A stretch of 64,000 bases of DNA, taken from positions 3,598,740 to 3,662,739 of the forward strand of contig NC_049993.1 of the NCBI RefSeq assembly GCF_000003815.2, written 5' to 3'. Both the position numbers and the translations under genes were made by a program. The stretch comes from Branchiostoma floridae (Eukaryota; Chordata; Leptocardii; Amphioxiformes; Branchiostomatidae). The notes beneath the pieces are model-generated. The model did not search any database and was not told the DNA's origin. It saw nothing but the letters and a program-made list of their open reading frames with translations. The first letter of the stretch is position 1, and each line of letters begins with the position of its first letter. Below are positions 21,752 through 56,200 of this stretch, piece by piece.

Positions 21752-24700
21752 ATGACGGAAAATATGCGCCATTCTGGAATTAAGCGGCAGTCTACGAAGA
21801 GCGCCCCTTCTCATAAACCTACAAGCGGAAAGGGGCAAATTCACGAGAAAACCACGGACAGTGCGACTACTCTCAACACTAAGCAAAATAAACATGTTGT
21901 CGGCTGTGCAACAAGAATACAATCATGTGCTAATTATGACGACACCTTAGAATCATCTCCCTCTCCTGAATGCGGTTCTTTGGCCCATCCGTACGGTGTG
22001 TTTTATGTGTCGGACAACCCTACGTACAATGTGCCAAATTTTAAAGTTAATGCGCCCCCACCGCCATCACGGTCTACAGCAAAGGCCTATTATGATAATG
22101 TTAACCCGATGGCTACTCCTCGACAAGAGGCATCTAAAGGTAAGAATTATTCGTAATTAACTTCATCAGGTTGGCAATTATTCATATAGTAAGGTTTTTT
22201 ATGCACAACCAGGGAGTACTTACTTCCAACGTTTCGATGTCTGTCAGACAGTCATCAGGGGGTTAGAATGACTGGGTCTGGTTCTTGCTACTACTCATAG
22301 CCGATGTAGGTGGCGCTGCAGCAGCTCAAGTCATGAACAGAGCCGAGGGGGGATACAAGATGAGCCACGTTTGGGACGGCATTCTTGCTGCTGTAGCGCC
22401 ACCTACATTGGCTATAACTAGCAGCAAAAACCAGACCCAGTCATTCTAGCCCTGATGATTGTGTCTGACAGACATCGAAACGTTGGAAGTAATTATAAGT
22501 ACTCCCTGGTTGTACCTAAAGAACTTTGCTATATGGTAAGGATTATTGTGTTTCTGTTGTTGTCACTGTGCATCTTCAAAAAGGTTTGTGTGTTTGTTTG
22601 TTTGTCTCGGTGTGTGTTCAAGTATATGCTGGATTGACCGGGTGCAAGTTGTTCACTGCTTGAGTTGTATGGGAGACTATACAATACATGCATTGGTAAT
22701 CGTTCACAATTTCATATAACATGCATTGGCATAATACCTGTCATAAGCCTTATACCGGTCGATTAAAAATAGTGGAACTTAAAGAGATCTACACATGCAA
22801 CAATAGTTATTTCTGAGGTGTGCACACTTCAGACATCTAGGTGTCCAATACATAATTTACAAAGCATCGATAACAATGTATTCGAAGACAACAAGGCCAA
22901 AAGTTTTCAGGTCATTTTCGGGGCAGGCGAGCTCGTCGTGGGACAAACATACTGTCACGTTCATCGCCAGATTTGTAGATAATAATCACATGTGCTCACG
23001 GCACAAGACGAGCATGATTCAACAGCAATCTTGAATTTCTTTTGGTGACCTACAACTCATGTAAAAGTGTGAGGAACCGTTGCATCATCGCCCGGATCTA
23101 AGGCTGAATGGGTCAAATTGAACGTACGCCGCCATTTTCCCGCCATTTTTAATGCTACGGCCAGCAGTAAAGTTTTACGTCATAGCTGTTGTGACGGACC
23201 AAAATTAAATGAAAATACTTGTCAGTATACGCCCATTTTCTCATGACTTTTTGTATGCTCATGCAGATTTTTGTTTTGTGCAACTACTAACAGGAAAGAA
23301 AGGAACAACAGAGGATGTATAAAGGTACATAGCGGCAGTTAATTGTGCCGTGTTTCGTTCGGCCGGTATAGTGCACCCCCTTCCAACCACGCGCCCGTTC
23401 TCCGTGCAATTCCGCGGTGTGTTCCAATTACGATATTATGTTTTTAGCAGGACCAGAGAGACAAAATAATTTACACAGAAGAAGTGGCAAAGGTAAGCTG
23501 TAACAGCAACATGTATCTGGAGAAAATGATGCGTTGATCATTTGCCAAATTAGCATTGCTTGAGAAATTGCAGTAAACCGACCGGTATTATGCCAATGGA
23601 TGTTATATTTAAAGGTAATCTATTTTGGGATTTCATGTTATTTTTAGACACAAATGTATGTTTGACAACTAAATACCCTCGTTAGTATACTGTGCCTAGG
23701 GCATATGCCTAATAAATTAAAGGTTTCATCATTTGTAAATTTAGGAAATAGACAGCTTGAAGAAGGTTTTCGACTTTGTTTTTCTCAAGAATGACAGTGA
23801 TGCGCTTATAGAGGGTTTTATTTATATTTTTGGTATACACGACGTTAAAATCAATTTGTGATCTTTGGCTTTTTTTTAATACTACAAACGTATATTTTGG
23901 GTTACTATATCACATCTTAAGGAACGGACCTAATGCTTTGTATTTGAGTACTCTGGACATACCCATTTGACTTCGTACACATTTTGCCACACAATTCTTT
24001 GAAATGATGTTCATGTGTTCCCTACTCAATAAGCCTAATAATGTGAAATTTGCGTCCTAAGGTGCGTTCTCAACTGACTATCTTCGCATGGCATGTCCAA
24101 TTTTTTTCAATCTTTTTATATGCAAATGTACGTTTAACTTGGTTTGTGCTCCTATCATAAGGAAAGAGTATGTCACAAAATTTGGGGATATACCCGAAGT
24201 AATGATTGTCAGACAAGGTCCCAATAATCTGAGTATTCTAGGAGGGGCTTTGTAGACTTGCGACAAATATCATGTTACAAAACGCCTGTATGGCTTACAC
24301 TGGAGACAAAACATTTGGTGATTTTTCCTGAAATTTAGTTGGCAATAACTTGACCGAGCATATCACCAAAATGAAGTATATATAACTTCGTAGCTACCTG
24401 TTTTTTTTTTTCTTTGAAAAGGGCTGGTAATAAAGTTTTAGTCTGTTTTCGATGACTTTTTTTATTGTTTGTTGAAACATTCTTTTTTCAATTCAAGTAG
24501 GCAGGCCATAGCCTGAGTACCATCCTCCGTAGTGACCGCTGGCGCACTACTTTCGCTTTCTAACCACAAGCGAAAGTAGCGAGCCAGCGGTCACTACGGA
24601 GGATGGTACTCAGGCTAGCAGGACCCAAGATCGCGGAGCTCACCTGTTATCTTAAATATGCAAGACGTCTTGATGACGTCATTTTGACCAAAAAAGCCAA

Positions 24701-27700
24701 TATGAAGAGGTTTGAGCTATGGCGAAGCTTTAATCAATATCTCCTGTCAATAATATCACAATTATAATGTGCCTCTGCTCCGCTTCTGTGTTTAAGCAAG
24801 CAATCCAAGCATTGGCGAAACCGGTCGAGCCTGATGAAGAAACGGCCAACAATCCAAACATACAAAATGGTCTTACATATCGGATTGCCTCAAGACTAAG
24901 CATCATATTCAAAGGTTTATCAATATATAATGTTTTGTAATTTTAAATGTTAATTTGGCCTGGCATGTGTAAAAAATCAATATACTGTTTTATCTATTTA
25001 TTTACGCTTGAGGTCTAATCAAGTTGACTTTATAAAAAGAACTAGTATGTAAGCTTTATTAGCCTAGTAGTATTATTCATTTTTTATTCAGTAAGTGTTC
25101 TGTAATATTGACGTAGTAGGAAGTTTGCTTGTTATTCAACAAAACTAATGATGAAATGGATAATTGCATAGGTAAGTGACGTTTCTGACATTCAGGTTCA
25201 AAACCGCGATAAAAGACAAAAGAAAACTTTAGATTCCTTATGGTACATCTTAAACATTCAGTGTGCCATAAACATAGCTTAGCTCTTGAGAAAATGTGCT
25301 TTAATGACATACTCTATTTAAATCTTACCAATAAGGTTACTAGGAATAGTTTTGTGTTTTACAGGACGAATATTGGACAAACGGTATTTCTGTGCAGTTG
25401 GCATAGCAGCTTGCTTACGTTTCTGTGTCTGTCAGACACCTTCCTCAGAGCTTTAGATGTTTTCCTCAGATGTCTAATAGACACCAAAACGTCACCATCA
25501 CGACTATTGTTGTCACTGAGATGTCAATGTCCCATCGAGTCAACGTGAATGTAAGTTTTTGAACATTATGTATCATGGACGTAAGTCCTGTTAACATAGA
25601 TGCAGGTTCAGTGGAGATGGATTTAAGTTCTGTGAACATGGATGCAAGTCATGGATGTAAGTCCCATGAACATGGATGTATATGCTTGGCACATAGATGT
25701 AAGTCCTGCGAACATGGATATAAGTCCTGTGGAGATGGATAAAAGTCCTCTGGACATGGATGTGAGTCTAGGTCCTGTGACCATGAATGCAAGTCCTGTG
25801 GAGATGGATGCAAGTCCTCCAAACATATATGTTATTCCCGCCAACATGGATGTTAGTCCCGTCAACATAGATGTGAGTCCTGTCAACATGGACTTAAGTT
25901 CTTTGGACATAGAGGTAAGTCTCGTGAACATTAATGTGAGTCCTGTGAACATGGATATAAGTCTTGTGGAGATGGATCAAAGTCCTTTCTTTCGTTTTAT
26001 TATTAAAGGCACTGTGGCGTTTCAAGGACAGGAACTCATTAGCATACAGTTTCAATGACAACTCAACCGCACAAGGACTTTTCAAGCGGATCAAACCTGT
26101 CACCAACGATGTGAGAGGATTTTGGAACACATCATTGTCAACTCCGAAAATAATTTCATCAGGTTGGTATAATATAGGACATAGGAGATTTCTTGTACAC
26201 AACCAGGTTGAACTTACTTGCTTACGTTTTGGTGTCTATTAGACATCTGAGGAAAACATCTAAAGCTCTGAGGAAGGTGTCTGACAGACACAGAAACGTA
26301 AGCAAGTAAGTTCAACCTGGTTGTGTACAAGAATTCTCCTATGTCCATCATTGTTAACGGCAGGATCTATGGAAGGTAGGCCTTTCCGTTGAAAATATGG
26401 GCTATTATACTTGCTCAAACATTTCACCAGTTTTTGGGTGCTATACTCTAATGTTTCAATTTGGATTGTGGGCTTCTGCTTATTTCGTATGATCTTTATG
26501 CCTCTGGTATTAGCAGAGCACAAAAACGTCAAACTAGTATAGTCTAATGATACAAAATCATATACAAAATGAATGTTCATAGTTGTGACCCTTACTCAGT
26601 GCCTTGGATAAGTATATTCAAAATTCAGCCATTGGCAGGGTGTTGCAGTTTATTTCTTTTTACAATTTTGATATGTCTATGGAGATCCGCGAGAGCAAGA
26701 ACAGACCACACTTACCCTTGAACCACCAGATACTTAACTGACGACTTTTACTAGCACTCAGGACCTTTTACCAGCAAGCTTTGTTAAAGGTAAACACGGT
26801 TATATCATATATATATACTATGAAGAATAAAATGTAGTTGGTGTGGTATACTGCCCGAAGTAAGCGTTCCTTGTACCAGGTCGACCATCTGTCCTTCTAG
26901 ACTTTTTGCCCTGTAAGCGTATTTACATAAGTGTGCAGCAGTAGTGTAATGATGTAGTGAAGAAAGCTAACCTTAACATTATTTTATATTCTATTACATT
27001 AAAGATCCCCCTGTACTTATTTTCTGATTTGTGATGTATTCTCGCTCAGCTAAAGAGGCAGTCACACAAACTATCCGAAATCACACCCCATTTACTTAGT
27101 TGTCAACGAAGTGATGCATACAATTACAGGGAGTATGGACAATTTATGTAACGTAACAATCTAAAACACAATACAGATTCCGGAGAGGAGCGACTATCAA
27201 CAACAAGCCTTGTACCAGCAGAAGTTGGACAGATAACGACTGGTAGGACTCCATTGGTACAAAGAAATGGGAAAGGTAGACATTTTGTTCTTTCAATCAA
27301 AATGTATTTCTATCTTGCTTACGTTTCGATGTCTCTCAGACACCTTCGTCAGGGCTTCTCATTGGAGTTCTGCTTCTCACCGCTATATGTAGCCGATGTA
27401 GGTGGCGCTTTTGCGGTGAAAAAACAATCACAAACGTGTATCCCCCTCGTGCCGGTTCATCACTGGGGTTGACTGTCTTATTCTAAGCGCAAAAGTGCCA
27501 CCTACATCGGCTACATATAGCGGTTAGAAGCAGAACTCCAGTGAGAAGCTCTGACGAAGGTGTCTGAGAGACATCGAAACGTATTACTAAGCAAAGTACC
27601 TGCTGGTTGTGTAAAAATAATTCTCCTATATCCTATATTCTACAAACCTGATGAACCTTAATTACGGATGTATTCCTATCTGTTCTTCATTGTTGAGCCG

Positions 27701-28992
27701 TAAAGAAAACATACTGATCAGTGATGTGTTAGCGGTGAACCGGCTTGTCTTCGCGATTGGTGAAACCTCGCATTTAAAATCAACCTTATACTTGGCGACA
27801 AATGCACGCCACAACCTGATCAGAAAACTGACAGGTACTTTCTTGGTATCCGACAGTATAAAGGGCTTCGGAAACAGGCCAACGATACACCCCCTACGAG
27901 AACCGGTGCAAATGTGACCAAAGCATAAGGGGGTCCCATTTTTCTTGTACTAACAAAAATTGTACTGGAAATTAAAAAAGGAATCTACATGACTGCTATT
28001 ACATACTCATTTTTTTACTTTCTTTGCTCCGTTTCATCGCTAATACAAGAGCTATCCATGAAAAGAGATTATAGATTCGAAAATAACACCTCCTTCTAAA
28101 GTTTAGGGTTCCTTTAATGCATTACTTTTGTTTCAGAGTCCCTATCTGCCTGGTCGGTGTCCTCCCAGCATTCACTTCATTCAGCAGACCGTGCTGATAT
28201 CAACTCTCGCGAGACTGCCAATAAAGCTGGCGTATGGGCAGCAGCAACCAACGACCAGGACCAATGGCTGATGAGGGACCTGGGCGAGGTGAAAGCCGTG
28301 ACAGGCATAATCACCAAAGGCAGAGACTACAGCCCTGATTGGCCGTATGGACCACATGACCAATACGTCACCTCATACGTCATTTCATACGGCGTCCAAA
28401 ATGGCGATGAGAAGTTCTATGTCAATGCGGACAACGAAACTGTCCTATGTACTCTCTTTTACTTCTATTCTAAATATACCACTGCGTATGGTTTCGCGAT
28501 GGTGCGAAAGTTTTCACGCATATGTGTGGAATACTATTTTCTTACAAACCATGGCCGCCTTTGTTATGCTTATCATCCCCAAAGGTACGTACACACCAAA
28601 AATATGAAAATTCGCAAACCTCTTCTCGAGTAAACTCTACGGGGCTCATTATCAAACTTGACCTTCGTTTTGCCGACCCCTACCTACTTACCAGATATCA
28701 TCAGGATCCATCGAAGGCTTCTCGAGTTATATTGTTCACAGACAGACAGACGTACAAGCCTTAAACATAACCTTAGCCACTTTGGCAAAGGTAAAAAGGC
28801 CCACTGCACTTTCTAACAAGTTGCCCAAAACTTTGCCGCAGGTTTTTACAGGGACCTCTGACCGCAACACGGAGGTCCGTCATGACTTCAGGGACTGTAG
28901 CGGCCCTGATATTCTCAAGGCGCGCTTCATCAAAATCCATCCCCTACCCTGGCATGGGTGGATCTCTATGCGGATGAAGATCGTAACATATG
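21752..28992 (+). CDS. Protein with an F5/8 type C (discoidin) domain, partial gene model
   Basis: The certain part is two exons, 28137-28441 and 28842-28992. They encode most of an F5/8 type C domain: SLSAWSVSSQHS..., WLMRDLGEVKAVTGIITKGR, then VFTGTSDRNTEVRHDF, ARFIKIHPLPWHGWISMRM. Such domains bind glycans or phospholipids in extracellular proteins. The usual start (Cys, LGMESG) and the final GC are missing, so exons lie on both sides. Three upstream exons fit in phase 1: 21752-22139 (ATG, 129 codons, charged, with PPPPSRS and YYDNVNP), 23451-23492 and 27177-27275, ending SKG, GKG and GKG/E. Their open frames and good donors suggest a cytoplasmic N-terminal tail, but no transmembrane exon was found. 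The donor after 28441 (GTCCTA) is weak. The domain is near certain; the 5' exons are inference and may be another gene. Confidence 0.5.
22184..22537. repeat. Fold-back element E1 with hammerhead-like cores in both arms
   Basis: A ~350-bp inverted repeat: TATAGTAAGGTTTTTTATGC... at the left and the complementary CCTGGTTGTACC...TATATGGTA at the right. Near each end is a block matching the hammerhead ribozyme core: CTGATGA, a short stem, then GAAAC, at 22452-22481 (plus) and 22231-22258 (minus). The middle carries GGTGGCGCTGCAGCAGC and its complement. It lies within an intron of the F5/8 gene model. Confidence 0.65.
24509..24617. repeat. Near-perfect 109-bp hairpin
   Basis: Arms 24509-24558 and 24568-24617 are reverse complements with about three mismatches in 50, around a 9-base loop TCTAACCAC. 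The arms begin TAGCCTGAGTACCATCC. The surrounding repeat occurs without the hairpin near 30720-30745, and GCAGG appears on both sides, as expected of an insertion. Confidence 0.8.
25371..25511 (-). repeat. Partial fold-back element of the hammerhead-like family
   Basis: TTGCTTACGTTTCTGTGTCTGTCAGACACC (cut here into TTGCTTACGTTTC and GTCTGTCAGACACC) followed by TTCCTCAGAGCTTTAGATG and TTCCTCAGATGTC matches the centre of element E2 at 26177-26346 in reverse orientation. The outer arms are missing. Confidence 0.55.
25560..25985. repeat. Minisatellite, ~21-bp unit
   Basis: About 20 imperfect units of the type AACATGGATGTAAGTCCTGT. Because 21 is a multiple of three, both strands stay open (plus frame MDVSPVN repeats, minus frame TSMFTGL repeats). 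The open frames are a by-product of the unit length, with no splice or start support. Some units have GAGATGG in place of AACATGG. Confidence 0.85.
26177..26346. repeat. Fold-back element E2, minimal form
   Basis: A 170-bp inverted repeat: GGACATAGGAGA...TTGTACACAACCAGG at the left, its complement ending CTCCTATGTCC at the right. It consists of little more than the two terminal arms of the family. The plus arm carries CTGAGGA...GAAAC at 26268-26297. Confidence 0.75.
27311..27640. repeat. Fold-back element E3 with hammerhead-like cores
   Basis: Both arms carry CTGACGA, a 7-bp stem (GGTGTCT/AGACATC) with a GAG loop, then GAAAC: plus 27551-27580, minus 27323-27352. Inner arms TATATGTAGCCGATGTAGG and GTGGCGCTTTTGCGGTG are mirrored. 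It shares TATAGGAGAATT-type ends with E2 and E4. Confidence 0.7.
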
Positions 28993-32836: not shown

Positions 32837-35800
32837 CTGTGTTTGTGTGTGTGTGATGGTGCGCGCGTGTGTGTGTCCGTGTGGGTGGGTGTCTGTATGT
32901 GTGTGTGCGTGTGGGGGAGGGGGAATTTCCCGGGACAAAAGTATCGATCGTACGAGAGAGCCAGATGGCAGACTTATCATAATATGCAAATAGATTTTGC
33001 AGCTCCCGGCATTCAGCCTTCAAATGTTTACATTTGTTCTGTAACATCCAATTGAAATTGTGATTAGATCTAGAATTAAACATGTTGTTTTTTATTGCCC
33101 ATGAAGATGCTTTGAACCCATTATACAAAATTTGTTTTAGACCATACATTACAAACTTTACTTTGTAGACTAGTGGCAGAACAATGTTAAGCATATGATA
33201 TAGGAGAACTCTTTTTACACAATCAGCAGATACTTACATTGCTCACGTTTCGATGTCTCTCAGACACCTTCGTCATCTCTGGAGCTTCTAACTGCAACTC
33301 TGCTTTTCACTCTCATGATAAACCGGGACGAAGGGGGATACAAGTTTAGCCACGTTTGGGATTGTTTTCTCACCGCAAAAGCGCCACCTACATCAGCTAC
33401 ATATAGCGGTGAGAAGCAGAACTCCAGTCAGAAGCTCTGACGAAGGTGTCTAAAAGACATCGAAACGTAAGCAATGTACCTGCTGGTTGTGTAAAATGAA
33501 TTCTCCTATATCCTATAAGGTAACAGCTTGATAAAATTATTTTTCGGAATGTTAAGCATTCTCAGTCCAAACACATCACAACACCTCTTTCCATATATTT
33601 TATACATACCTTATGCAAAGTAAGTGCTGTTACCAGCAATGGAAATGTCAGGCCCACGATACGACATGTAACTCGGCAGATCCCTGATATCACGCTGGCG
33701 TATCGGGGAGCGATATCAAAGGCGTTTGCATCAGCAACTGTGGACGGCAAACAAAACAGATGTACTCCGATCAAAATTGACGAATTAAGGATTGTGTTCT
33801 CTTGATTAACCTTTAATCTTAAAGAAGTGTTGATGTCCTTATTTCAATGATTTCAGTCTTCAAGTCGAAAAAATAGCTATGATGACTTGGTCATGGGGTT
33901 GGGGTAACGTATAGGCGATCAACACCCGACAGTGCAATGTAGTCGGCAAGCACCTGTGGAGTAGAGAACGCTAAAATGTGTTGTTTTTGACTGTATGGGT
34001 TTATAGGTAAATACTAGTAGGTGTTGCTGAGACATCAAATATTACTTTGTGGTGCCCCTAGAGGTTGTTAATATATTGCAGTAGAACGTCAGGTTTTATG
34101 TTCTACGTTAAGTTATGGTAAGTCCAATATGGTTACGTCTGATTCTCACTGGCCGATCCGGCAGCTGTTTATCCAGATCATATCGCCAAGCATGCCATTG
34201 TCTGACCTTACGTCCATTTTTAAATATTAAGATCCTGGTGAAGTCCCAACACAGAAATCACAAGGAGTCCGGCATGTAAATGAAAAAAAAAACACAAAAA
34301 AAACTACCCAGTAGGGCATCAGCTTAGAATATTATCACTAGGTAATAATGATTATCACCAGGTGCATTTTGCCCGCCAGTAGGTACCCTAATTATGAGTA
34401 ATGAGGGGGCACCTCCTCGAGCACGGGACCCCCGTCGGTTTTACGTCCCTCCCGGAAGACGATTTCGTGGAAAGATTCGTGAGGCTACAGCAATCCAGTC
34501 GTCCTTGGTTGGGGGTCTCCCGTCCAAGAACTATCCGAACCGCGCGTTGCATATCAATAACTCCCGAGATCGAGGGATCGGGTGTACCAACGCGCCATGC
34601 GGTCGTAGCGTCAAGCATAAACATCCTACAAAAACCTACCAGCTGCCCTGGCTGCAGAACACCCAAAGCCCACAGCGACAAAACAGGCTGCCACGATAGG
34701 GTTGGAGGTAAAGGCCGCCGTGAATAGGCACCCAGAAACGCACAGACAAGCTGTATGGAGTAGAGGAAGGTCCTATTGCTTGTTGGTTGTAGTTGATTCT
34801 ATCGGCAACATCTGAGCGTTTCCACACTAAAATATTCAGACTACAGAACTATTAATTAGCGATTGGATATTGTTAATAAGGTGTTGAAATGTTGGAAACC
34901 ATTACGGCATACGACAATGACTGCTTTCTCGCATTTTTTAAATGCTATTCATTGATAAAAGGCCCCATAAAAACATAAATTCCAACAAGAACTTATCAAT
35001 ACAAAATGTTAAACGTACCAGTGACAGCCATAGCCTTTCTTGCAATAGTCGTAGAGACATACTTGCAGAGTAAGTTCCCAATGAGAGCGACAAGCGGCTC
35101 TATAGCTCCAAATATCAGTATGGGAACTCCAGCTAGGACGCCCGTCTATGAGCATAAAAAGTTGGGATACCTAGTATATTACTGTCTCCGAAAAAAGAAG
35201 TCGTACCCAATAAGTTAGAATGTAGCATTAACTTTTCGACTGAGTAAACACATCTATCACCAACTATTAGGTCACAGGCAAAAATTTGCATCTTATTAAG
35301 CTGTATTTGACAATAGCATAGGAATATGAGTATAAAGTATTTTTTTTTAATTATCCTTTTCTTTCCGTTATCCTGTCAAATCTTAAAATTGATTTGTCTT
35401 TGTCATTATTGGTCCAATTGACCTGGGCCAATCCCTCGTTTTCTTCATTTGTTTCATATACACCTGAACAAAAAGTTTTTGAGGCTATTTCAAGATAGAC
35501 CAATGATATACCCCCCCCCCCCCCCAACCCGGGCTGTGGCATTGCAACGAAACGACCTGGAATAAGTCAGTACAATTAAATAAAAAACAGGGTAGTATAT
35601 GTATCCGGGCAGTATATGTGTCTATGCCATGGATAACTAGAGCTTAAAATCAATCACATTAATATCAAGATTTTTTTTTTAACTAGATACGCCAGCTAGA
35701 AGAAACATGAACAATTCTTACCAGTTCTATCTTAGTTCCAAAGCTTTGGTTCAAGTACAGTGGTAGAAGGTTTGGGTCCCAAACGTAAGCCGCTACTTGT

Positions 35801-38800
35801 AACAGAATGGAGGCCCAAACTGCAGCAGATGTCAAGATATGACGAAACGGAATGCTTTTCTGCAGAGAAAGATACATTTGGTAAATTATAACTTGTCAAT
35901 AGCTGGCTGATATTAAATGAACATTTCTTTGTGACGTCGTGTAGGAACATCAACATGGAGGCTATTTGCATTTCATTTCATAATTTAGATAGAAAGCTAT
36001 CATGGAAATCATATCCATCTTGAGGTCAGCATACTATGCATCCCCATTTTCTATAATTTCCGTATGCAGCCGGGAGAGCAACATAATTAACACGCCAGAA
36101 TTAAACCTACACCGTTCTACTGATACCTGAATATCATTTGTTTACTTGGACACTGAAATGCCATTATAGCGCGCAAAGATTGTATGCTGCGACGCATGTA
36201 ATTTCAATATATTTCATAGATGTTACAATACCGTTTTAGTTGCCTCGCCCTTGTCCTGTTTCGATGTATCTATCACGTCTTGCTTATTGGCTACAGCTGC
36301 CAGTTTAAATCCAACCATAACGGCTGTCCATGTTATCCCGAGACAGCCTGTGTATGAATAACCAAGAAAGACAACGCCATGTATTTAGATATCAAGATGC
36401 AAACTAAGACTATAAGAGCCTAGTCACATTCATCATATAGTCATGTGTATGTCGTACAGAATTTAACTCTTGTGTATAAGCGATAAAAACAGTATTTGTT
36501 CCTTGTCAACGAGGGACCCCACCGACAGCGACAAATGTCTTCTGACATCTAATTTGAATTCATACTTTGCAAAGTAGGTCAGATATTCTTACGACTCTTT
36601 ACGACGAAAATTTTAAAATTGAATATAAAATAAGGAAAAAATGAAATCTACTTGGTATTACCGGATATTACTATAAAAATGATACAACTTACAATCTACG
36701 GATGAAGTCATTTCATTGAACAATTCCATAGCGGTCATGTAAAGCGAGTGGACAATCTTTTCTAGAGTTATCATCCTTACCAAATATGTAAAATGTTGCC
36801 TTCCAGACCAGCCTTTTAGAGATGAAGCCTGTTGAGATGAGTCCAACGCATTGGCCGATATATACACCTGAATAGAGCAACAAAATAAAACGCTTCACAT
36901 CCGTTAACTAGTTTCTGCATCTGCAGTCTTTGGGACATCATGAAGCTTCTTTTAGGAAAATATAATCGTAGCTAGATAAAAATTGCACCTATATAGAACA
37001 TGACAACTTAGTCCGTTCAGACATGCGTTGGGTTTACTAACTTGTCTTTACCGTGCCTTTTGTATTAGTTATGCATATTAACAGGATAACAACCCACAAT
37101 TACTGTCTCCCGTACACAAATATCGTAAACAAAGCAAAAGATTGCCATGGAAAAGTATCTATAGTTTAATCCTAATGGAAAGGCACAGGGGACCGATTGC
37201 TAACATGAGAAGAAAAACATTTTTCCCATGTCAATTTCGTAGCCTAGGTACCATCTGATTACTTCCGGGGCCCGCTGCCCTAAAAACAATGAAAGTACCC
37301 AAGCTATCTTTTCCGGCTAGTCCAGAAAATTGATGCCCTTATTCTCTATAATGAGGGTAGCAGCTCATATCTAAAAACAAGACACCAAATAGCGTCTTAA
37401 AGGGCAAGGCACCAAATAGCAATGATATTGACACTCAGTAACTCAGACAAAGGTAGAGAGCATGAATGTGTAGGAAAGAGTGTACATGTACTTCTATACA
37501 GAATTCAAAGGAACTGGCGAAAAGGCGACCCGTCTGCCTGGCCTCCACTTGGGTTTTTAAAGTGAAGGAGGGATGTGCACGTCCTTCTCCACCCTCTCGT
37601 CCACTGGCGCACTAGTCCTACAGGGGCAACTGTATGCAACGTGTAAGACGGCCCCAGCAGATGCAGGTTTGTTATTTGGAGTAGGGTTACCGTACTATTA
37701 TCATCTTAGTATAACCTGTGCAACTGCTTACTCAGGAAAACTATCTGACCTGCGAAGATGAATGGTGCAACTCTAGCGTTTTGCTTCGGCAGCATGTATT
37801 CGTTAAGAGCTCCATACACGGCAGGTTCACATAGGCCCTGTAGCAAGAAGGGACATAAAACAGAATTACTCCAACAGTAACAATATTTCTTATACATACG
37901 AAACTATTGCTAATAACAATTTTAGGGGATTAAGCTGCTTGAAGTAAATTCTGTAGAGATAGTCAAACTGTATCAACTAATGCTCAAGAACATGTCGTTA
38001 ATACCAGTATGCGGCGTCAGAAATGTATAATTTTGTTTGGCTTTTGTGAAGAGCGGTACGAGGGGCGTGCAAGAAGTAATGGCCCTGACCCACTTCCAGT
38101 CGTTTGATCTAGATGAAATTTTGTATGTGTAATGAATCATATCTCTATGGGTTATGTTGCAAAAGACAGCTCTGAACTAATTGTGGTTTCTGATTTACTG
38201 GTGTTTGAACTTAGTCAGGTGCGAAATGGACCAGGTGTGAAATGGAACCAGTTGAGTGTCGCGCAGTGATCCGGTTTTTGTATTTGAAAGGACGCACACC
38301 AAAGAAGACTTTTGATGAAATATATGAAACTTATGGTGATGATGCCCCATCATATGACCTTGTAAAACGCTGGCATCCTGAATTCAAACGTGGCCGGAAG
38401 TCTGTGGAAACAGCTCCCAGACCTGGTCGTCCCTCTTGTGCCATTGATGAGGCATCTGTTGGAGGACCAACCTGGGGTGTCCTACAAAAACGGTGTCCAG
38501 AGCTGCATCAAACGATGGGAGAAATGCATAACTCTGGGTGATTCCTATGAAGAGAATGACTAATATCTGTGCCAAGTTTCATTAATCTCCTGCTATGGGA
38601 AATGGGTCAAGGCCATTACTTCTTGCACGCCCCTCGTATATGCATTTGCCAACATAGCTTGATATAGAAATAGATAGTGATGATATAATGTTGGAGACAA
38701 CCATAGTCCCCGACCCTCCTGATAAAGATGGGACTCGGTGAGGTGAATGTTGTATACGTTATTATGGGTCATCCTTACCTCTGCTAGTCCGGCCAAAACA

Positions 38801-41667: not shown

Positions 41668-41671
41668 TTAA

Positions 41672-46632: not shown

Positions 46633-47043
46633 TTGCTTGTGTGTGTCCTGGAGGTTTTTATTTGCAGAATGGCCGCTTTGAGATTGTTATATCTAAACTC
46701 TAAAGAGATGCGTTTCTTGGACAATTGACCCTATTCAGATCGGGCTTTTTATGGGCAATCTGGGGCGGGATAAGGGGGCTTTTGTGACCCGCGTCTGTAA
46801 CTCATATTGCTCCTAAACAGCTTATCATGGTAAACACCGTTTTTTTAGAATGATGTTAACATAGAATATAAGGATTGTAAGTCTTGAATATACTCCTACA
46901 GTTAGTCATGTATCAAAAGGTTGTTCGTGATATCAAGGCTGTGTAATATTCATGCAATTGAAGAACGGCATGATAAATCAAAAGCCTGAATAGAATAATA
47001 TGTAATACAGCAAGGGATTCCATGTAAAAACACAGACAGAACC
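45211..47043. other. No gene recognised; repeats only
   Basis: Contains a partial copy of the 57.2 kb dispersed element at about 45868-46210 (AACAAGATAATTCAAGAACG, CCCCTAGTGGCTTCC), a TG microsatellite at 46453-46645 and a piggyBac-like left end at 46729 (CCCTATTCAGATCGGGC). Confidence 0.55.
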
Positions 47044-50000
47044 ATGGCGGGTACCCAGATAGGAGCAGCTCTGCAATACCCAAGTTGGACCAGCCACCAT
47101 CGCTGTCGGGGACGCATCTCCCTCAGCCGGGATCTATGGGAAAAGTTAAAGGTACGAAATCAGCAAGAGAAAAACGAATTTTAAATTGGGTTCTACTGCA
47201 CCTTCGATCTCAACTATAGAATGTTCTAGTTTGCTAAGACAGACTGACAGTAAGCATCTTTACTACAAAAGTTTCAATAAACTGATTTTGATGTAAGCCG
47301 TTCAGATGTTTATGTTAAACCATCAAGATAGTACGTCAGGTTAAACACCCGAGTGGGTCGGTACCCCAGGTATAAATTATAGAGCGTCATTTCAACATTT
47401 TTCATCTGAAAAATTTCTTCATTGGTTTTTCTTTGTAGATATTGTTTTTTGGTGTTGTTTAAATTTAAAAAAAATGCTGGTTCCGTCACAGCTTTGTTTA
47501 AAACGCTGTGCGTGGCCATGCTGTTTGCCAAATACGTGTAATTGGCGATGGCGAATCCAAACCCACCATACTTTTGAGTTTCTGAAATCGTCATATTTGA
47601 GAAAACGTAATGTTAGTATGGCCTTGTCAAGTAAAATGATACGCTACGTCTGATGCAAGAGGGTAACAAGCTGATATTGGTATAAAACACATTATTACAC
47701 GCTATATTCATTGCAATAGTGTCACTTTTATTTGTATAATCAAGGCTGCGACAAGATACATTTTTCAATTTCTCGTCATGTTCACCATCTCCGGAAAATA
47801 TAGATATGAATATTTTTCATTGTAATTGGAGCCACCCCCCCCGGTCTGGATAGGGTTAACATTAATATTTGTTTTATTTCTCAGGACAAAAAGACGTCAT
47901 TGACCAAATTCACCATCAACGATGTGGTACGGAGTGGACTTCTAGTTCCCAGTAGTGACATTGGAGTCTATGCAGGAGACGAGGAGTGCTATTATCTGTT
48001 CCGTGACGTTTTCGACCCAATTACAAAGTAAACCGATTTAAAACTTTTTACATAGTTAGTGCAATATGTATGTAGACACGTAGTACAACTTTAACACGTT
48101 GTTGAGGTTCGACAGCATACTATGAAGTATCTAATTCGTGTCAGCACATCTTCTATGTCTCCTACATCTTTCCTATAAACCTAGAGAGTGCCACGGGATC
48201 AACGAGATACCTGTCCACATCTCCAACCTGGACCCTCGCAGTTTGACGTCTGTGATTAAGAACAAAGCGCCGATCCGGTCGACTAGATGTAGGGTGGTCA
48301 GGAACCTGGCTGGATACGGTATAATCAAAGTTTACAAATAAGTCCCTAAAGGTGGGCTCTCACTGCGCTTGGGGCACCGGTGCGGCACTGCGGGGGCGTT
48401 CACTGCAAAGTGACTATTTTGTTATTTTCTACATTTAGTATGATTTAGATATTGCGCAATACGTAAAAGTATGACTTAGAAGACAACAAAATCCGCAAAA
48501 CGTAAGAAAATTCGTTCTTTATCTATGAACTCCGCAGTGCCGCACCGGTGCCGCAAGCGCGGTGAGAGTCCACCTCAAGTCGCTGCAGTCCTACTTTAAG
48601 CCCAAACACATTCCCACACTTTTAAGTAGACGTTTTCTGAAACGTCGGTTCGGAATGTTGTTCTGGACAGAATTCCCACTGGAGTTTCACAAGCTTTCAC
48701 AATTTATCGTTCTGATGCCAATATGATGACTGGCTCTGTTTCTTTAATGCCAAACTATGTATATGTATTGTAACAAATGCCTGTTGTATCATGTTGTACA
48801 TGAAATACATTGACAAGACAAAAATTCATTACCAGGATTCCCTGCCGGAATTTCCCGGGAAAACCGTCTAGAAGTAGAGGGAATATTAGAGACTGCACTT
48901 GAGGACCTTGAAGGAGACCTCAACGGACAATACCACCCATACGATACATTAACAGGCTCGGAAAAACAAAATATGATAATGAGTGGATATCTCTTCCGGG
49001 TACTTGACACATATATGTCAGTTCTATTAACCCATCTATCGACTTGAAATTAATACTCTAGAACAATTTCAAAGTGCTTCGAGCTTTTGCTTAAATTAGA
49101 ATACTCGGGTGTTTGCTGGACTCTTGACTCTATCGCTTTTAGAGTCGTGGAAATGAAAACTTTCTTCATTGTTGTCAAGTTAACTAGCAGTGTCATTAAG
49201 AACCGAAAATATCTGTAACGTAATCTTTGACACTTTGTTGGGGGCAATTTGCTGCTCCTGTTTCTGGGCTTCGGTAAAAAATTTAATTCCCATGATTTAA
49301 TTTGCTTTTGCAGGAGAGTGATGAGTATCAGGCTGGTGCAGGGATAGGCCGGGACTGGCCGGAGGGTCGTGGCATCTTTTACAACAATGCCAAAACGTTT
49401 TTGGCGTGGGTAAACGAGGAGGACCATCTTAGAATCATTTCTATGCAGAAAGGTATACTATCTTCTATTCTATAATTGCACAGTCATTATTTGTGATTGC
49501 TCGGAGCCTCTAAAATAGCAATAAACCTTGTAGCATATAACATTGTTTCTTGTCGAAAATTGACTTTATACCAGCCGTCATCTTGATAAGATATACATCC
49601 CGTGATGCATTGCATCCGAAATGCTGTCACCTGTAATAAGGCCTATGAAAATGCTGTGCTTCTGATTACGTAATGAAATGTAAGGTCGTTAGGTATTTTT
49701 CTTTCTATTTTGTATTTAGTAAGTAGTCTGGTATATACAATCCAAATCTTTAAAAGTAAAACACGTAAGAAAACTTTTCTGTTCAATATCATATTTCACT
49801 TATGAAGACAGTCATTACACGATTCCAAATAGATACATATGGCAAACAGAATTGTCTGAAACACACGCAGTAGATAGTTTTCTTATGCAAAATATGTTGG
49901 AAAAACATACAGTAAAATATCTATAAACGTTTCAGTAACACTCATATGCCAGATTTTAAATTCCAATGCACCTTGTCAGCGGTCGACAAAAACGTCTAGG

Positions 50001-52192
50001 TTTGGTCAGACGGAAACGGCATTTCAAGTAAACCTAACTGTTTTTTTTTTCATTCTAATGTAATACAATTATTCTATCAAATCTATTACAGGAGCAAATG
50101 TCGAGCAAGTGTTCGATCGTCTGTGCCGTGGCATCAACGCCATCAACAAGGCCCTACTGAAGCAAGCGCAGACTGAGTTTGCGTTTCACAAGCAGTATGG
50201 CTACCTGTCGAGCTGTCCTACAAACCTAGGCACGGGCATGCGCGCTAGCGTCCACATGCACATCCCCAACACGCTAACGGAGTCCCAATTCAAGAACAGG
50301 TGTTGTAAGCTTGGGTTGGACGTTAGAGGCCGACATGGAGGTAATAGGAGCTGTGAAAATGTTTTGGTGACCTGGGGTTTCTAATGACATGGGGAATGCT
50401 GTGCAGGGCAGGGGCTTCCAGGCTGCCAGGATGGTTCAGGTGGCATAGGCGGATAGGCCTAGGTCAGGATAAATATATTTCTTTGTCTCATTTGTTTGAT
50501 TCATTTTGGTGTTGTTACTTAGCAGGGTGGTTGATTGGTAATTAACTTATTTGTGTTTTTGATTAGTTGCTTCTTTGTTTGCTTGGCCGCATATACATTG
50601 TGTTGGCGGCTGTTTGATTGTGACGGAATTTTAGAATGTGTATCCGAAGGATAACTATGCAGAGGCTCTGTATGGATTGTTGGTGATATGTGGTTTATGG
50701 GTACTCTCCAAGCAGAGGTCGAGTCGCGGAGATATACTAGTAGTCGAAAAAAAATACACGCGCGCTCCTCCTACCTCTGCCTCAAAACGGAACGGTACAA
50801 GGCTATTAAATCTAATCACTTTGACACATTCAGGGCGTTTTGTAACTAGGTGCTAAGTTTTCGACGGGAGTTAGGAGTTTCTGTCAGCGCGCCGTGGGTG
50901 TTTCCTGTCTGCCAGTCGGAGCAAACAACACCCCATAAAATCGGTTGTGGCTCAGTCATGATACGTCAAAACAAGCTATTATTTGTGTCCCTATGATCTA
51001 AAAAAGTTGTGCAACCGCTTGTAAGTACGTCCAGATGTCAAAAATAAGTTAAAAACGAAATTTGTTCAGTCAAAGTTGACCTTCTAAAACTCAGACTTCA
51101 CGCGCTGACGGCCGTTTTGCTATAACCGCATGCAGCCGTAAATGTAATTCACTCGCGTTTTTCCCAGTTTACCACATGCTCAGATTAGCGTATTCATCTC
51201 TTGAATCGACAATTTACTAATTCATATATTAACATGTCATTTATATTTGTAATTGATGCAAAATATTTTCAGGGTGTAGGAAGTTACGTTATGACACTTT
51301 CAATGTACCGGGAAGGAATGACGTCGGCCATTGTTGTCAGTGAATAGACATCGCAGCGGGTGCTGGCCCGACCCGCTGAACATGTGCCGGGCGCGTGTTA
51401 CTCCGGGGCAGTAAAAGTATTTGGCTAACGATTTTTTTATGCTTGGGGGGGGGGGGGGGGTACTAACACAGATTTTGAAAGGATATCCCCGCCCCTATGC
51501 GTTTTGAGGCAGAGGTAGGAGGAGCGCGCGTGTATTCTTTTCGACTACTAGTATATCTCCGCGACTCGACCTCTGCTTGGAGAGTAGTTTATGGGTAGGT
51601 CGTGAGAAGATCTCAAAATGCTTGGATTAGACCTTCCCTAGCGACGTGTTACAGTACTACAGATTGCCACTTTATGTTCTGGATTGGCTAATGTGGGTTT
51701 GGTTGGTTGTTTGTTTGTTTGTTTGGTTTGTTTGTTTGTTTGGTAGGTTGGTTGGTTGGTTGGTTGGTTGGTTGGTTGGTTGGTTGGTTGGTTGGTTGGT
51801 TGGTTGGTTGGTTGGTTGGTTGGTTGGTTGGTTGGTTGGTTGGTTGGTTGGTCGGTCGGTCGGTCGGTTGGTTGGTCGTTAAGTGGATTGGCTGATTGGT
51901 TGGTGGGTCGTTCAGTCGCTTGGTTGCTTGGTTAATTGCTTGGTTGCTTTGTTTGATAAATAGTGGGTGACTAAGTGAGTGGTTGGATGTTTGGATTGAT
52001 TCCTTATACATTGGCTTTTTTTGGTTGATTGGCTGTAAATAAGTCAATTAAGAAGTTTCATCTTGTTTCTGTATGACCTCAGAAAAATGTGATAGTGACG
52101 GAGGTGTGTATGACGTATCCAACCTTCAGCGGCTGGGTAGTACCGAAGTGGAGCAGGTACAAACACTGGTTGATGGCATCAACTCCATTTGA
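47044..52192 (+). CDS. Phosphagen kinase (arginine/creatine kinase family), complete
   Basis: Seven exons: 47044-47151, 47885-48027, 48185-48318, 48836-48999, 49314-49452, 50092-50340 and 52083-52192 (TGA). All are GT-AG and in frame, giving 348 residues. The enzyme family moves phosphate between ATP and a guanidino compound to buffer cellular energy. Visible marks: [14 protein letters not shown] in the substrate loop, STRCR (116-120) for nucleotide binding, [35 protein letters not shown] (216-230), SCPTNLGT with the reactive Cys at 271, then RGRHGGEKC and [16 protein letters not shown]. Length, the Tyr in the substrate loop and a Glu near 313 (Val in creatine kinases) are arginine-kinase-like, while GDEE is creatine-kinase-like. 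The CGRS segment after STRxR is changed to VVRN and the preceding region is rebuilt, so substrate and activity are uncertain. Introns carry two MITEs. Confidence 0.88.
48350..48575. repeat. MITE-like inverted repeat in a phosphagen kinase intron
   Basis: AGGTGGGCTCTCACTGCGCT plus GGGGCACCGGTGCGGCACTG at 48350-48392 is mirrored at 48530-48575. Arms are about 45 bp and GC-rich around an AT-rich centre. Confidence 0.75.
50702..51586. mobile_element. Mutator-like MITE with 85-bp ends and 9-bp target duplication
   Basis: Arms 50702-50788 and 51500-51586 are near-exact reverse complements, beginning TACTCTCCAAGCAGAGGTCG. A 9-bp direct repeat GTTTATGGG flanks it at 50693-50701 and 51587-51595. Long inverted ends with 9-bp duplications are typical of Mutator-like elements. 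It is 885 bp and lacks a transposase frame. It sits in the last phosphagen kinase intron. Confidence 0.8.
51745..51890. repeat. GGTT microsatellite
   Basis: More than 25 GGTT units with a GGTC sub-block near the end. The long GWLV-type open frames here are artefacts of the repeat. Confidence 0.95.
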
Positions 52193-52246
52193 AATATTAG
52201 CATAGAAGTTTATCTATGTTGATGTATATGTCATCACTAATGATGA

Positions 52247-52252
52247 ATTAAA
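52247..52252 (+). promoter_or_regulatory. Possible polyadenylation signal of the phosphagen kinase gene
   Basis: ATTAAA 55 bp after the stop codon. Confidence 0.45.
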
Positions 52253-53292
52253 ATAACTTGACTAAAAAGTAGAAGAATCTGTACTTAACAAAAATTGCGG
52301 TGGTGGGGGAGACAAAGGTTATCTGACACTTACGACCCGTTGTAGCAGTCACGTGGCTCTAATGTCTCCTCAAGGGAGTAACAGTAGACGGATTCATTTT
52401 ATGAAAAAGTTAGCCAAAATTGAGTAAGTCGTAGTTTGTCGGTTTGTCACGTAAACTATATAGTCTTCTTTCATAATCTACTTTATACGATGTGTCTACG
52501 TATACATACAGCGAGGGTTTTAAAATTTAGTGTTAATGTTAAGACATTATATTTTAACAACAATAGTCTCCTTTTTTCGCAATGGAGAGAAATTTCATGG
52601 TAACAATAGCTTTGTGCCGATACTAAGAATTGAATAACTACCAACATTTATTAATTTGAATCTATAAAAAAATTGCTATTGTAACGACATGAAGAGTTCG
52701 CATAAAGAGAACACCAGATATTTGGCATTCTGTGACACGATCCGTTGTTTTTATTATTGACGAAACATGCCTGTTTAAGTTGTTAAAACGGGATATTATT
52801 GTTTCACCGGCTACAGCCTACGAATGTTTTTTTTCTGTGTTCTCTTAGCACTCCATCTTTTTTAAAGTAGCAAACGAATTGATTTTTGTTCTCTCATTTC
52901 TACATACTCCTCACGTCTCATATCAAGGTGATTTCTCAAACTATTTGGGTGCAGGAGATTATCAACTTCTTTCATTTAATCTTTGCATCTATATCTATAT
53001 AGTCGGTGTAACAACCCTTCGGTGTAACACACCAGCTTCGCGGCGCTGCAGCAGCTGGTTATATTACACTTAACGACCCGTCACACCTAACTTGTGTACA
53101 TGTATCTGATGGCGTTCCCTGTATCTGTATCTATATAGCCGATATAAAATAATGTACGGACATTTGATCCTTACTTTTCCATTTTTGGTTTGCTTTGTAC
53201 GTGGCAGCGTTGAATAAGAAGTAGTGTGAACTCGGCCATCTTTGATTGGCAAGTTATATGATATTATCGTTTTATCTGTCTTCTGAACCTGC
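52253..53292. other. Intergenic, no gene recognised
   Basis: Convergent 3' ends: the phosphagen kinase gene stops at 52192 (plus) and the NXPE gene at 53293 (minus). Nothing else supported here. Confidence 0.55.
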
Positions 53293-56200
53293 CTAGTTTG
53301 GGCAAATATTAGAAAACAGTATGTTCAATTGATTGTCCACCATCGTTTGATCTGGATGAATGAAGTCTTTTCCCGGCTGACACACGCTCATGTCCCACGT
53401 GTCCAACACGAACACATCCGAATCCGCCACGAACATCTCCCGTATCACCTCCGTGATCTGGTAAGCCAGCCAGTCGCTTCCTAGGAGGTAGTACTGCAAT
53501 TCTCCTCCTGTGTGTTCTCGCGTTGTTCCTGTTCTCACCAGAACTCGCGTTCCGGGACTCCTGCGCACGAGACGATGTATGGCGCCCCGTATGGCGTACA
53601 GACGAGACTGTATCATATCCAACGGCTCTGCCGTATAATGAGCCCACAGACTAAGGACTATGACCGTGTTTGGACCTCCGTGAGTAGCGTCCAGCTCATC
53701 GGCAATGTAACGGGAGTCATTGAAGATATTCCAAGCGCCTACTTGAACAGGGTAGTGGTGGAACCGGTAGCGAACAGAAATGTTCCACTGAATGTTGTCG
53801 CCTCCTTTACTAGCTGCAAAATAAGGTACAGAATAATAGATAAAGAGACTATTTTTACACAAGCATTATCTTATTCTCAACGACGTTTCGGTGACCGTCT
53901 GTCACCTTCTTCAGGGCAATTCTGACTGGTTCACATTGTACTGCAGGACAGGTGTCGCTGCTCACAGTTCAGATGCGGTCACAAACGTAAAATATTTACA
54001 TATGTACGGAGAACTTTATGCAAAATATTTACAATGCGGTCCCAAAGGAACCAGTCAGAATTGTCCTGAAGAAGGTGACAGACGGTCACCGAAACTTCGG
54101 TGAGAATAAATTAATGGTTTTGTAAAAATAGGCTCCTTATTCAGTGACATACCAACCTAATAAAGCTATTCAAGGAAAAAAAAAGATGCAACGGTCACTT
54201 GCCCTCATCAGTTCATTATTGATTCTTGTGACTGGCTGTGATGAAACGATGTCTATATGGCAATGCTGCCCTCATCAGTTCATTATTGATTCTTGTGACT
54301 GGCTGTGATGAAACGATGTCTATATGGCAATGCTTCCCTTCTACAAATACACCCATTGCTACCCAACTTCATATCTTAGTGTTTTCGACAATTTCATGTT
54401 GGCCATCAATGGTGAGGAATCGTACTTTTCTGGTCGGCTGACTCCCCTAGCGCACTATTGACTCTATTTGTCCAATTTATACAATTAGACCACTGATCCG
54501 CGGAGCCTGGTAGAGGATAGAAACCGGGGACAAAATTCGTTTTCGAAATTAGGCGAAAATCAATGCAAGCGCTAATGTAATCGATAAAATTATGTTATGT
54601 GCCCCAATTCTGTTGTTCGATAACAATCGTTCATATTTGTTGGAACCGCCTATGTATTTTGTACCTTATATAGTTACAACGCCTAGCCCTTTTCGATAAA
54701 CTGGTGGCCCTAGTTATTATATAACGCTAGTTCACCTTTGTCCGCGGGTTGACCTTTATCCGTTGTCTTTAAAACAGAATATTTAGGAGTATTACGTCTG
54801 GGGACTGTGGTTTCAAATTTTCAATGTTTTCAAACTGTTCACCTTCCGTCGACTTTATATCTCTAAATACTTTTTTTTGCAAATAACGGATATAGGTTAC
54901 CCTCGGATAAAGGTGTAATATGTCATTATAGAGCCAAATCAATCGAACAAATCAACACCGCACTTGACACAATACATTCTGGATGATGAGCAATTTCATC
55001 ATCATCATGGGCAAGATAACAGGAGGAATGATAATGTAAAAAAATGCATTTGTTGCAGCAACAACAGAGTCGGGAAGGCTTAAGAAAACGTATTTAACAG
55101 TTGCACTTAAGAATTAAGAAAATTATTTGACAAACCTGTTAGATCCATCGTTTCATTATCGTAGTGCAGCGGTACTAGCTTCTGTAAGCGCTGGCTCCAT
55201 TGCCTAATGGTGGAGTCACCTAAATTTGAAGAAACATGATATAAATATATATATATGCTTATTCAGCTTGAGCTTATAGTAAGGCAATCTTTAACTAGCT
55301 ATACTCGTAACGTAACCTGTAAATTACTTGAATGAATGGTTCAATCAATTGGAGAAGCGGATTTGGTTAAGCTAAGGGCACAACCAGCCGCACGTGCAAA
55401 TGCGTGCTGTCTGCGTGCAAAAACGTGGGCAATTTTTTTGTATCCGTAAGTGGTGGGTACCGCCTCCGTACGAACTCGTACGGAGTCCAACGGTTTGGGG
55501 AGTACGCAGACACGACGTACAATGTAGAACTTCATGTGCATGAGAAACTTTCTCTGCCATCGGCCGGGCTGCGGATTTGGCCCGCGCGTGCCCAGTACAG
55601 CGAGTAAGGACACCGTACGTACGCAGCCCATGTAAGTAGGGCCTATATACGGTAATGTGACAATCGCACAGAGATTTACGTTGTAAGCACTTACAACTCA
55701 CTTGAATCCATAGCCTGATGGCAGGGAAAGTTCGATATGAACGTAGAGTTCTACGGTGTGTCTGCGTGCTCCCAAATCCGTTGGATTCCGTACGAGTTCG
55801 TACTGAGGTGGTACTTACCACTTACGGATCCCAAAAGATTGCCCACGTTTTTGCACGTAGACACCACGCAGTTGCATGTACGGCGGGCTGCGCCCTTAGT
55901 TTTAGGAACTGGTGGTACGCCCAATGATATTCATTTAGTATTTTTACTACGTCTTTTGAAGCAAAACAACTGAGCACTTTACGCACCATGCATGTACACA
56001 GTCTTGTTAGCCAGGCACCGCCGGATATCGCCCCTGCTAAACACTCGGACATTGCAGACAGATGACCACCAGATCTTGCCTGACCAATGTCCCTGACCTG
56101 ATGACGTGTTCCACGTGCACTCTGGAAGGTGTTGAGGTTTGGGCAGTTCTGCCTTAAGGACGCGTACGGGCTCCTTTGGGTCTACTTCAAGTTCCTCTTC

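Follow-up and report, generated by a model that had tools for sequence, protein, structure and literature searches.

Introduction

Penelope-like elements (PLEs) are retroelements for which pseudo-long terminal repeats (pseudo-LTRs) standing head to head, with a tail on one side only, have already been published (PMC3846280), and their hammerhead ribozymes are minimal versions without helix III, possibly active as dimers (PMC6155905, PMC7761336). Such a minimal type I hammerhead consists, in this order, of stem I, CUGANGA, stem II, GAAAC and the triplet GUH, and has no helix III. For the inverted copy, Arkhipova et al. 2013 suggested an origin by self-priming, the template being antisense, without settling the question (PMC3846280). 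In this article, we will focus on a stretch of 64,000 nucleotides of the lancelet Branchiostoma floridae (NC_049993.1, positions 3,598,740 to 3,662,739; hereafter the window), and on five short elements in it, E1 to E5, in which two arms face each other in inverted orientation. An original prediction, made from the letters alone, had taken them for a family of short non-coding fold-back elements whose arms carry a hammerhead-like core.

We consider it very probable that E1 to E5 are 5'-truncated insertions of endonuclease-containing PLEs, made of an inverted and a direct pseudo-LTR set head to head and carrying a minimal hammerhead, and that the fold-back would be the by-product of two complementary DNAs (cDNAs). 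As read from the sequence, the pseudo-LTR is the end of the PLE open reading frame (ORF), then a predicted minimal type I hammerhead, then the sequence in which the ORF opens.

Penelope-like coding sequence

The PLE identity of the E1 to E4 kind is established by comparison of coding sequences, from longer copies elsewhere in the genome and from the window itself. In L034, an ORF of 415 residues (P0001) lies between arms of the same kind and matches RVT_1 and then GIY-YIG; it contains AMGSPVSP and YVDD, which we take to be reverse transcriptase (RT) motifs. The two matches follow each other in the same order in L040 and L058, so that an RT followed by GIY-YIG within one ORF is found at three loci, each time with scores below the Pfam gathering thresholds. 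L058 shares 145 of 369 aligned positions (39%) with P0001, and L037, L040 and L041 are further partial PLE copies. Positions 5155-5217 and 5454-6500 of L058 represent a second PLE family, in which RT and GIY-YIG are matched and which has a PLE hammerhead of its own. Pseudo-LTRs flanking the ORF are found at one locus alone, L047, where the ORF lies between two direct copies (141-nt direct repeat, 98%); this ORF is interrupted in the RT region and its pieces were read apart. Also in L047, a stop-to-stop frame starts inside the hammerhead and continues through the tail, and this is the putative opening of the ORF.

In the window itself, the sequence next to the arms of E1, E3 and E4 codes for the last 31-38 residues of the ORF (63-92% identity, E 1.9e-9 to 4e-18), and a translated search with P0001 gave no ORF sequence in E2 and E5. 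The tblastn matches of P0001 residues 1-40 were set aside, as they come from the inverted arm of L034 read in antisense. E5 is assigned, putatively, to the PLE type by its core, its layout and its tail-like end only. A short non-coding family is thus not what we find, as E1, E3 and E4 keep coding sequence from the end of the ORF and the longer copies hold RT and GIY-YIG between their arms, and these same two observations bear out the hint of a Penelope-like origin that the prediction had also contained. Since the shared centre of the elements is ORF sequence and the junctions between arms differ, the fold-back was ruled out as the unit of mobility.

A predicted minimal hammerhead and its putative cleavage triplet

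The window contains nine exact matches to CTGANGAN{8,30}GAAAC, against 0.69 +/- 0.73 expected by chance (100 dinucleotide shuffles, largest count 3). In these blocks CTGANGA is followed by a stem and then by GAAAC, which is the CUGANGA ... GAAA core of the hammerhead. The text of the original prediction counted seven such blocks and its own list gave eight; all eight are there, position for position, and a ninth exact block had been overlooked.

Of the nine exact blocks, eight have GTT, GTA or GTC directly 3' of GAAAC; the exception is the block in the right arm of E5, with TTC at this place and the triplet lost. The prediction could not place a GUH cleavage site with confidence and had named the lack of one in register as a ground for refutation; the site does exist, in register, and it abuts GAAAC. 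Our own reading is that this position would be a consequence of the absent helix III, because the blocks would belong to the PLE class of hammerheads that lacks it; no helix III is found in them, the GUH adjoining GAAAC. Beyond the window, GTH follows GAAAC in 77/90 cores (stem II of at least 4 bp; window plus loci found without fixing the triplet), and in 89/101 once the loci whose G was fixed by the search pattern are included. Before stem II stands one extra base, which is an A in the nine-copy alignment described below and in most cores, as the prediction had noticed for most of its copies, and a T in the E1-like subfamily. Two other placements were tried and rejected: a type III fold across both arms, with the left arm giving the GUH, which leaves stem I unformed (judged from the sequence, without computation), and a GUA further downstream as the cleavage site, dropped for the GUH abutting GAAAC. 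The hammerhead reading of the window blocks is, in our view, partly right, in that they are predicted minimal hammerheads that fit those reported in PLEs without helix III.

Covariation of the stems

In the other copies of the genome (513 Mb in 431 contigs were searched), covariation is clear for stem II and less so for stem I. The pattern CTGANGAN{10,26}CGAAACG has 2840 matches in this genome, against 246 for the reversed control. Among the first 100 matches listed, all on one contig (C1), stem II comes in versions such as GGATAG/CTATCC, GGAAAG/CTTTCC, GAGTGA/TCACTC, GGTGAC/GTCACC and GGTGTC/GACATC, and 539/600 of its cells are paired; for the 65 distinct versions among these 100, the count is 332/390, whereas 2000 shuffles gave 232 on average and never more than 255, the C of pair 1 being fixed by the search pattern in these counts. 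For the first three pairs of stem I (47 distinct sets), 99/141 cells are paired, with a shuffle mean of 76 and a maximum of 93, and pair 1 occurs as U-A, C-G, A-U and G-C.

A second measure comes from nine gap-free copies, which represent by their stems about four subfamilies, none of them represented in the window. They were obtained from 25 candidate rows, of which the 12 outside the window subfamilies were aligned, and L086, L087 and L090 were then left out because the aligner had placed a gap inside stem II. In this set, 90.1% of the cells are paired (77.8% in helix 1); the alignment has a covariation score of 0.80, which falls to 0.37 when shuffled and to at most 0.22 with slid partners; the shuffled controls keep the relatedness of the copies, so these numbers are strong but are no probabilities, and two of the five covariation measures do not exceed the shuffles. 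A covariance model built on these nine copies recovers 5/9 exact window blocks at E of at most 0.001 (both of E5, the right one of E4, the right one of E2 and the left one of E3). Inside the window, compensatory change was seen by inspection as one full pair swap (T-A to A-T) and one change from G.T to G-C. The compensatory change that the prediction had read in the stems is therefore there in the window, and the evidence from other genome copies, on which it had proposed to test covariation, is stronger than the window's own.

Insertion ends

The ends of the insertions were studied on 68 loci (L011-L078) and the window, which together give 43 outward-facing arm pairs; these loci were picked up through an intact core and are those listed first for contigs C1-C6, so they are no random draw. 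Arm coordinates are given on R, the L047 unit. Outer ends fall at two places about 28 nt apart, one at R2757 after TTTTCG, which we call tailed, and one near R2729 after ATCC, which we call untailed. By script, 33 of the 43 pairs have one tailed end, none has two, three are untailed at both ends and seven could not be called. By eye, exactly one tailed end is seen in 39/43 pairs and four could not be classified (L064, L044, L076 and E3). L038 and L059 appear to be duplicates of a single insertion, as do L075 and L077, and it may be that the pairs of L058 and L076 each comprise more than one insertion. The regular presence of one tailed end per arm pair, as a count, is possibly new.

Target site duplications (TSDs) accompany these pairs: a score of at least 9 is reached in 25/43, against 6/1806 re-paired flanks, and 24 of these 25 pairs are one-tailed by script, the remaining one, E3, having no call. 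In the window, four of the five elements (E1 to E4) have a TSD, of 12-14 bp. The optional tail of some 30-40 bp at one end, which is another mark of PLEs, is found here with a length of about 28 nt. From the cut site to the tailed end, we count 80 nt on R; in PAc of Anolis, a cut at +26 and a start at +111 to +118 give 85-92 nt (PMC11167929).

The flanks that follow the tailed ends, in L011-L078 and in the window, are often AAGTA-like, which resembles the RNA beyond the start site and might point to pairing of primer and template, but the signal is noisy (25 rows). We make no claim on this likeness, because the rows include one internal junction of L047 and because the first G is probably element sequence.

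Arm junctions and proposed priming on both strands

Within a pair, the starting points of the two arms on the element are between 0 and 1065 nt apart. The distance is 503 to 1065 nt for L034, L040, L037, L041 and L028, in which the arms themselves touch or lie at most 5 nt apart. Neither arm reaches beyond about 310 nt into the element in 38/43 pairs. In 5/43 pairs, the arms are long and extend into the ORF. A microhomology of at least 3 nt is found at 9/34 scorable junctions, against 4.1% in simulated blunt joins; 9/43 junctions went unscored, since BLAST placed their arms over 14 nt apart or masked letters separated them.

Because the arms join at non-corresponding positions and each classified pair has one tailed end, the sequences favour two cDNAs per insertion, one from each target strand and from different start sites, over hairpin self-priming. 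The PLE enzyme would make staggered cuts, about 12-13 nt apart, in the two strands of the target, whose free 3' ends would both prime reverse transcription of the PLE RNA. One strand would start its cDNA at the tail site, whereas the start on the other would lie about 28 nt upstream. These cDNAs would then meet head to head and be joined, often at short self-complementary matches, and a bare fold-back would be left when both of them stop early, as a by-product and not as a separate element family. PAc of Anolis is indeed described as cleaving and extending both strands, with two start sites and the tail between them (PMC11167929). That PLE insertion here commonly consists of two coordinated priming events with asymmetric start sites, joined head to head via microhomology, the inverted pseudo-LTR being the scar, is a wider proposal on which our own judgement is evenly divided; if it is true, a facing ribozyme pair would be a routine by-product of an asymmetric two-strand reaction.

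Points against and rival explanations

A number of results weigh against the reading developed so far. On the coding side, these are the domain scores below the Pfam thresholds, the N-terminal ORF piece of L047, for which no Pfam or NCBIfam family was found, and P0001, for which no relative was found among solved structures at E 0.01. As to the stems, pair 3 of stem I is formed in only 26/47 sets, so that this stem is short and imperfect, and in the nine-copy alignment the pairs changed on both sides number 7 against 5.5 when shuffled (99/500 shuffles reach this), the further pair types 15 against 14.8 (300/500). With the nine-copy model, E1 comes out only at E above 2; a stretch without core, 63377-63421, has an E of 0.068, which places it above the right arm of E3, and was rejected as a hammerhead. 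Single cores with 14 nt of extra flanks adopt, as we read the folds, the hammerhead as unconstrained minimum in 0/11 cases. In the search with the Rfam covariance models, which the prediction had asked for, nothing reached the gathering scores, and 21500-55000 yielded no hammerhead even when matches up to E 10 were admitted. The same models, however, gave no hammerhead up to E 10 on the PLE hammerhead of L058 either, which served as a check sequence and in which GUC, a stem II of 7 bp and a stem I of 7 bp or more can be recognised by inspection. Since this one was missed too, the Rfam negative says little, and we rejected it as a refutation. The hammerhead of the original prediction is hence supported by its core and by the covariation of its stems, less marked in stem I, and lacks an Rfam match. 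The core scan also returned ten loci on viral contigs, which were set aside as about chance level by a rough mental estimate; as they had been picked by their core, their model scores serve as no control.

The same caution applies to the ends and junctions. The tails were read by eye knowing the pattern, not blind, and the script has three pairs untailed at both ends (by eye, L022 and E4 have diverged tails and L064 a masked flank). No microhomology is seen at 14/34 junctions. In vitro, PAc has no strand difference in its start site (PMC11167929), and the classified pairs here show one of each. Among single-arm copies, an inverted piece exceeds the null maximum in 2/23 and the 95% point in two more, and 6/18 have a flush TSD of at least 11 nt without inverted arm, a count made without a control. 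As single-arm copies carry few inverted pieces and some of them flush TSDs, single priming also seems to occur, alongside paired priming. The copies L017, L019, L051, L053, L054 and L062 are of this sort, single-armed, with a flush TSD of at least 11 nt and no inverted arm found, some of them tailed and others untailed.

The rival that we take most seriously, while still judging it improbable, concerns the ribozyme, as the stem-GAAAC block might be a conserved binding or start-region hairpin of the PLE transcript devoid of ribozyme activity. That the ORF of L047 opens inside the block, that PAc inserts in vitro without needing hammerhead cleavage (PMC11167929) and that single cores do not take the hammerhead as their unconstrained fold all speak for it, but subfamilies with differing stems have kept the core letters, as well as the GUH and the first part of stem I, which a plain hairpin would not need, and the hammerhead of PAc does cleave when its protein is present (PMC11167929). 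As for the inverted arms, it is unlikely in our view that they form as proposed for bdelloid Penelope elements, where a hairpin would prime itself on an antisense PLE template. This was put forward from palindromes at inverted junctions (PMC3846280), and the junction microhomology found here suits it too; yet the inverted arm should then mirror the sequence beside it, and in the five loci with starts differing by 503 to 1065 nt it does not, and self-priming leaves the tailed and the untailed end of every classifiable pair unexplained.

We give little credit to a separate non-autonomous family, a PLE-derived one resembling retrozymes or miniature inverted-repeat transposable elements (MITEs) and copied as fold-back units, even though several copies are alike in size and layout, the centres of E1, E3 and E4 are homologous, and metazoan retrozymes bear type I hammerheads too (PMC7229834). 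The shared centre is in fact ORF coding sequence, the starts of the arms vary between most insertions and reach the ORF in 5/43 pairs, no arrays of short head-to-tail monomers are found in the mapped loci (the direct copies of L046 and L047 are 2.4-2.6 kb apart), and helix III is absent. Ordinary DNA-transposon MITEs with a chance palindromic block in their inverted repeats, finally, would account for the inverted arms and for the presence of TSDs, but we see next to no chance for them, given that the TSDs measure 12-14 bp, that the tail is asymmetric, that the insertions are 5'-truncated and contain PLE coding sequence, and that ORFs with RT and GIY-YIG lie between like arms.

Predicted behaviour of the ribozymes

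When whole elements are folded, their arms pair through the cores, with energies of -114 to -238 kcal/mol. Because of this pairing, a read-through transcript of a fold-back probably buries both ribozymes, and these would probably be silenced, each core facing its own complement in the predicted fold. The hammerhead of PAc needed the protein and was dispensable for insertion in vitro (PMC11167929). If it serves anything, the predicted ribozyme would serve the PLE transcript. In L065, on the minus strand at about 306-350, a PLE-type insertion has a single core inside a long two-arm hairpin, and a tail-like end.

Features of the window

The coordinates of the elements and of their cores are given in Table 1. 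Next to them, the window holds several other features. At 24509-24617 lies a palindrome with 50-nt arms (96%), possibly a MITE hairpin, which has a weak Rfam mir-9456 match on both strands (46.7 and 43.4 bits, below the gathering score of 80). Between E2 and the inverted copy of its centre, at 25574-25986, are 21-bp tandem repeats (3.6 and 15.8 copies), which are open as a seven-residue repeat on both strands. This inverted copy (25410-25497 versus 26219-26306) is 721 nt away from its counterpart and has neither a tail nor outer arms. About 30 bp past E5, at 54200-54339, are two copies of a 67-bp tandem repeat. Domain matches at 53296-53865 (-), 28118-28630 (+), 59030-59416 (-), 16148-17020 (-) and 38215-38538 (+) are to NXPE4_C, F5/8 type C, neurexophilin, C2H2 zinc-finger and a Mos1-type transposase helix-turn-helix.

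Table 1. Elements, target site duplications, predicted hammerhead cores and coding remnants in the window (positions are those of the window; E values of cores are from the nine-copy covariance model)
Feature	Position	Strand	Description
E1	22152..22534	minus	Head-to-head pseudo-LTR pair, putative Penelope-like insertion; left end tailed; inverted arms 66 nt, 89%
E1 TSD	22139-22151 / 22535-22547		12/13 nt
E1 left-arm predicted hammerhead core	22231..22258	minus	Then GUU
E1 right-arm predicted hammerhead core	22452..22481	plus	Then GUU
E1 centre	22330..22443	plus	PLE ORF C-terminus (..MNRAEGGYKMSHVWDGIL..), 63% to P0001 residues 378-415, E 1.9e-9
Ninth exact core	25419-25448	minus	Then GUA; from the pattern search; E 0.002
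Inverted copy of E2 centre	25410..25497	minus	88 nt, 98%; holds the ninth core
E2	26143..26345	minus	Short putative PLE insertion; left end tailed; left core degenerate; inverted arms 72 nt, 92%
E2 TSD	26130-26142 / 26346-26358		12/13 nt; first 9 seen in the initial scan
E2 predicted hammerhead core	26268..26297	plus	Then GUA; E 2.8e-4
E3	27316..27667	plus	Putative PLE insertion; right end tailed; left arm truncated near R2680; inverted arms 103 nt, 93%
E3 TSD	27302-27315 / 27668-27681		13/14 nt
E3 left-arm predicted hammerhead core	27323..27352	minus	Then GUA; E 0.001
E3 ORF C-terminus	27361..27453	minus	77% to P0001 residues 385-415, E 2.7e-12
E3 right-arm predicted hammerhead core	27551..27580	plus	Then GUA; E 0.09
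E4	33195..33547	plus	Putative PLE insertion; right end tailed (diverged tail, by eye); arm pair, ungapped, 41 nt only, 93%
E4 TSD	33183-33194 / 33548-33559		12/12 nt
E4 left-arm core	33245-33276	minus	One core mismatch; from the inverted-arm comparison
E4 centre	33315..33428	plus	PLE ORF C-terminus (..INRDEGGYKFSHVWDCFL..), 92% to P0001 residues 378-415, E 4e-18
E4 right-arm predicted hammerhead core	33437..33466	plus	Then GUA; E 7.8e-5
E5	53836..54170 (limits approximate)	plus	Head-to-head pair, putatively another PLE-type subfamily; right end tail-like (by eye); inverted arms 106 nt, 86%; no TSD found
E5 left-arm predicted hammerhead core	53885..53914	minus	Then GUC; E 9.7e-7
E5 right-arm predicted hammerhead core	54066..54095	plus	Then UUC; E 2.7e-6

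Comparison with known systems

The ribozyme find is an ordinary one, as hammerheads in PLE pseudo-LTRs, head-to-head pseudo-LTRs and tails are all in print; the paired inverted arms, which the original prediction held to be the unusual part, are already described for PLEs (PMC3846280, PMC8969392). A lancelet PLE is present in Repbase according to a figure legend (PMC11167929), and the PLE subfamilies found here may already be catalogued. In the excerpts of the literature consulted, which covers few subscription papers, we found neither a count of pairs with one tailed end, stated as a rule, nor a description of two-strand priming as the way in which the arms are joined. What this genome offers is about 2800 core matches (some 250 being expected by the reversed control) together with paired insertions that have TSDs. 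With so many copies and TSD-bearing pairs, the origin of inverted pseudo-LTRs, left open in PMC3846280, becomes testable by census.

The core letters are common to the Rfam hammerhead families and to the copies described here, in which helix III is absent. The Rfam hammerhead models missed every copy tested, in the window and at one other locus, and such copies are therefore easily mistaken for unknown fold-back elements. Metazoan retrozymes (PMC7229834) likewise carry a type I hammerhead in short repeats, but the elements of the window lack helix III, have inverted and not short tandem copies, and include PLE coding sequence; short tandem monomers with directly repeated hammerheads, which would mark a retrozyme, are not seen in these inverted arms. 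The PLE hammerheads of Lunse et al. 2017, as excerpted from two reviews (PMC6155905, PMC7761336), share with ours CUGANGA, stem II, GAAAC, the lack of helix III and the site in the pseudo-LTR, and a possible difference is the additional base that precedes stem II in the copies here (usually A, but T in the E1-like subfamily).

The closest match is with the Penelope/Poseidon-type PLEs, namely Pen2a of Adineta vaga (PMC3846280) and PAc of Anolis (PMC11167929). Common to them and to the insertions described here are the order RT then GIY-YIG in one ORF, the pseudo-LTRs with an adjacent inverted pseudo-LTR, a short tail on one of the pair, the TSD, the hammerhead near the border between pseudo-LTR and ORF, and a similar distance from the cut site to the tailed end. 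The arms are short here, within about 310 nt in 38/43 pairs, unlike in those elements; the TSDs of the window measure 12-14 bp against 8-10 bp in PMC3846280, and the tail is of about 28 nt, against 31 bp in A. vaga and 30-40 bp in D. virilis.

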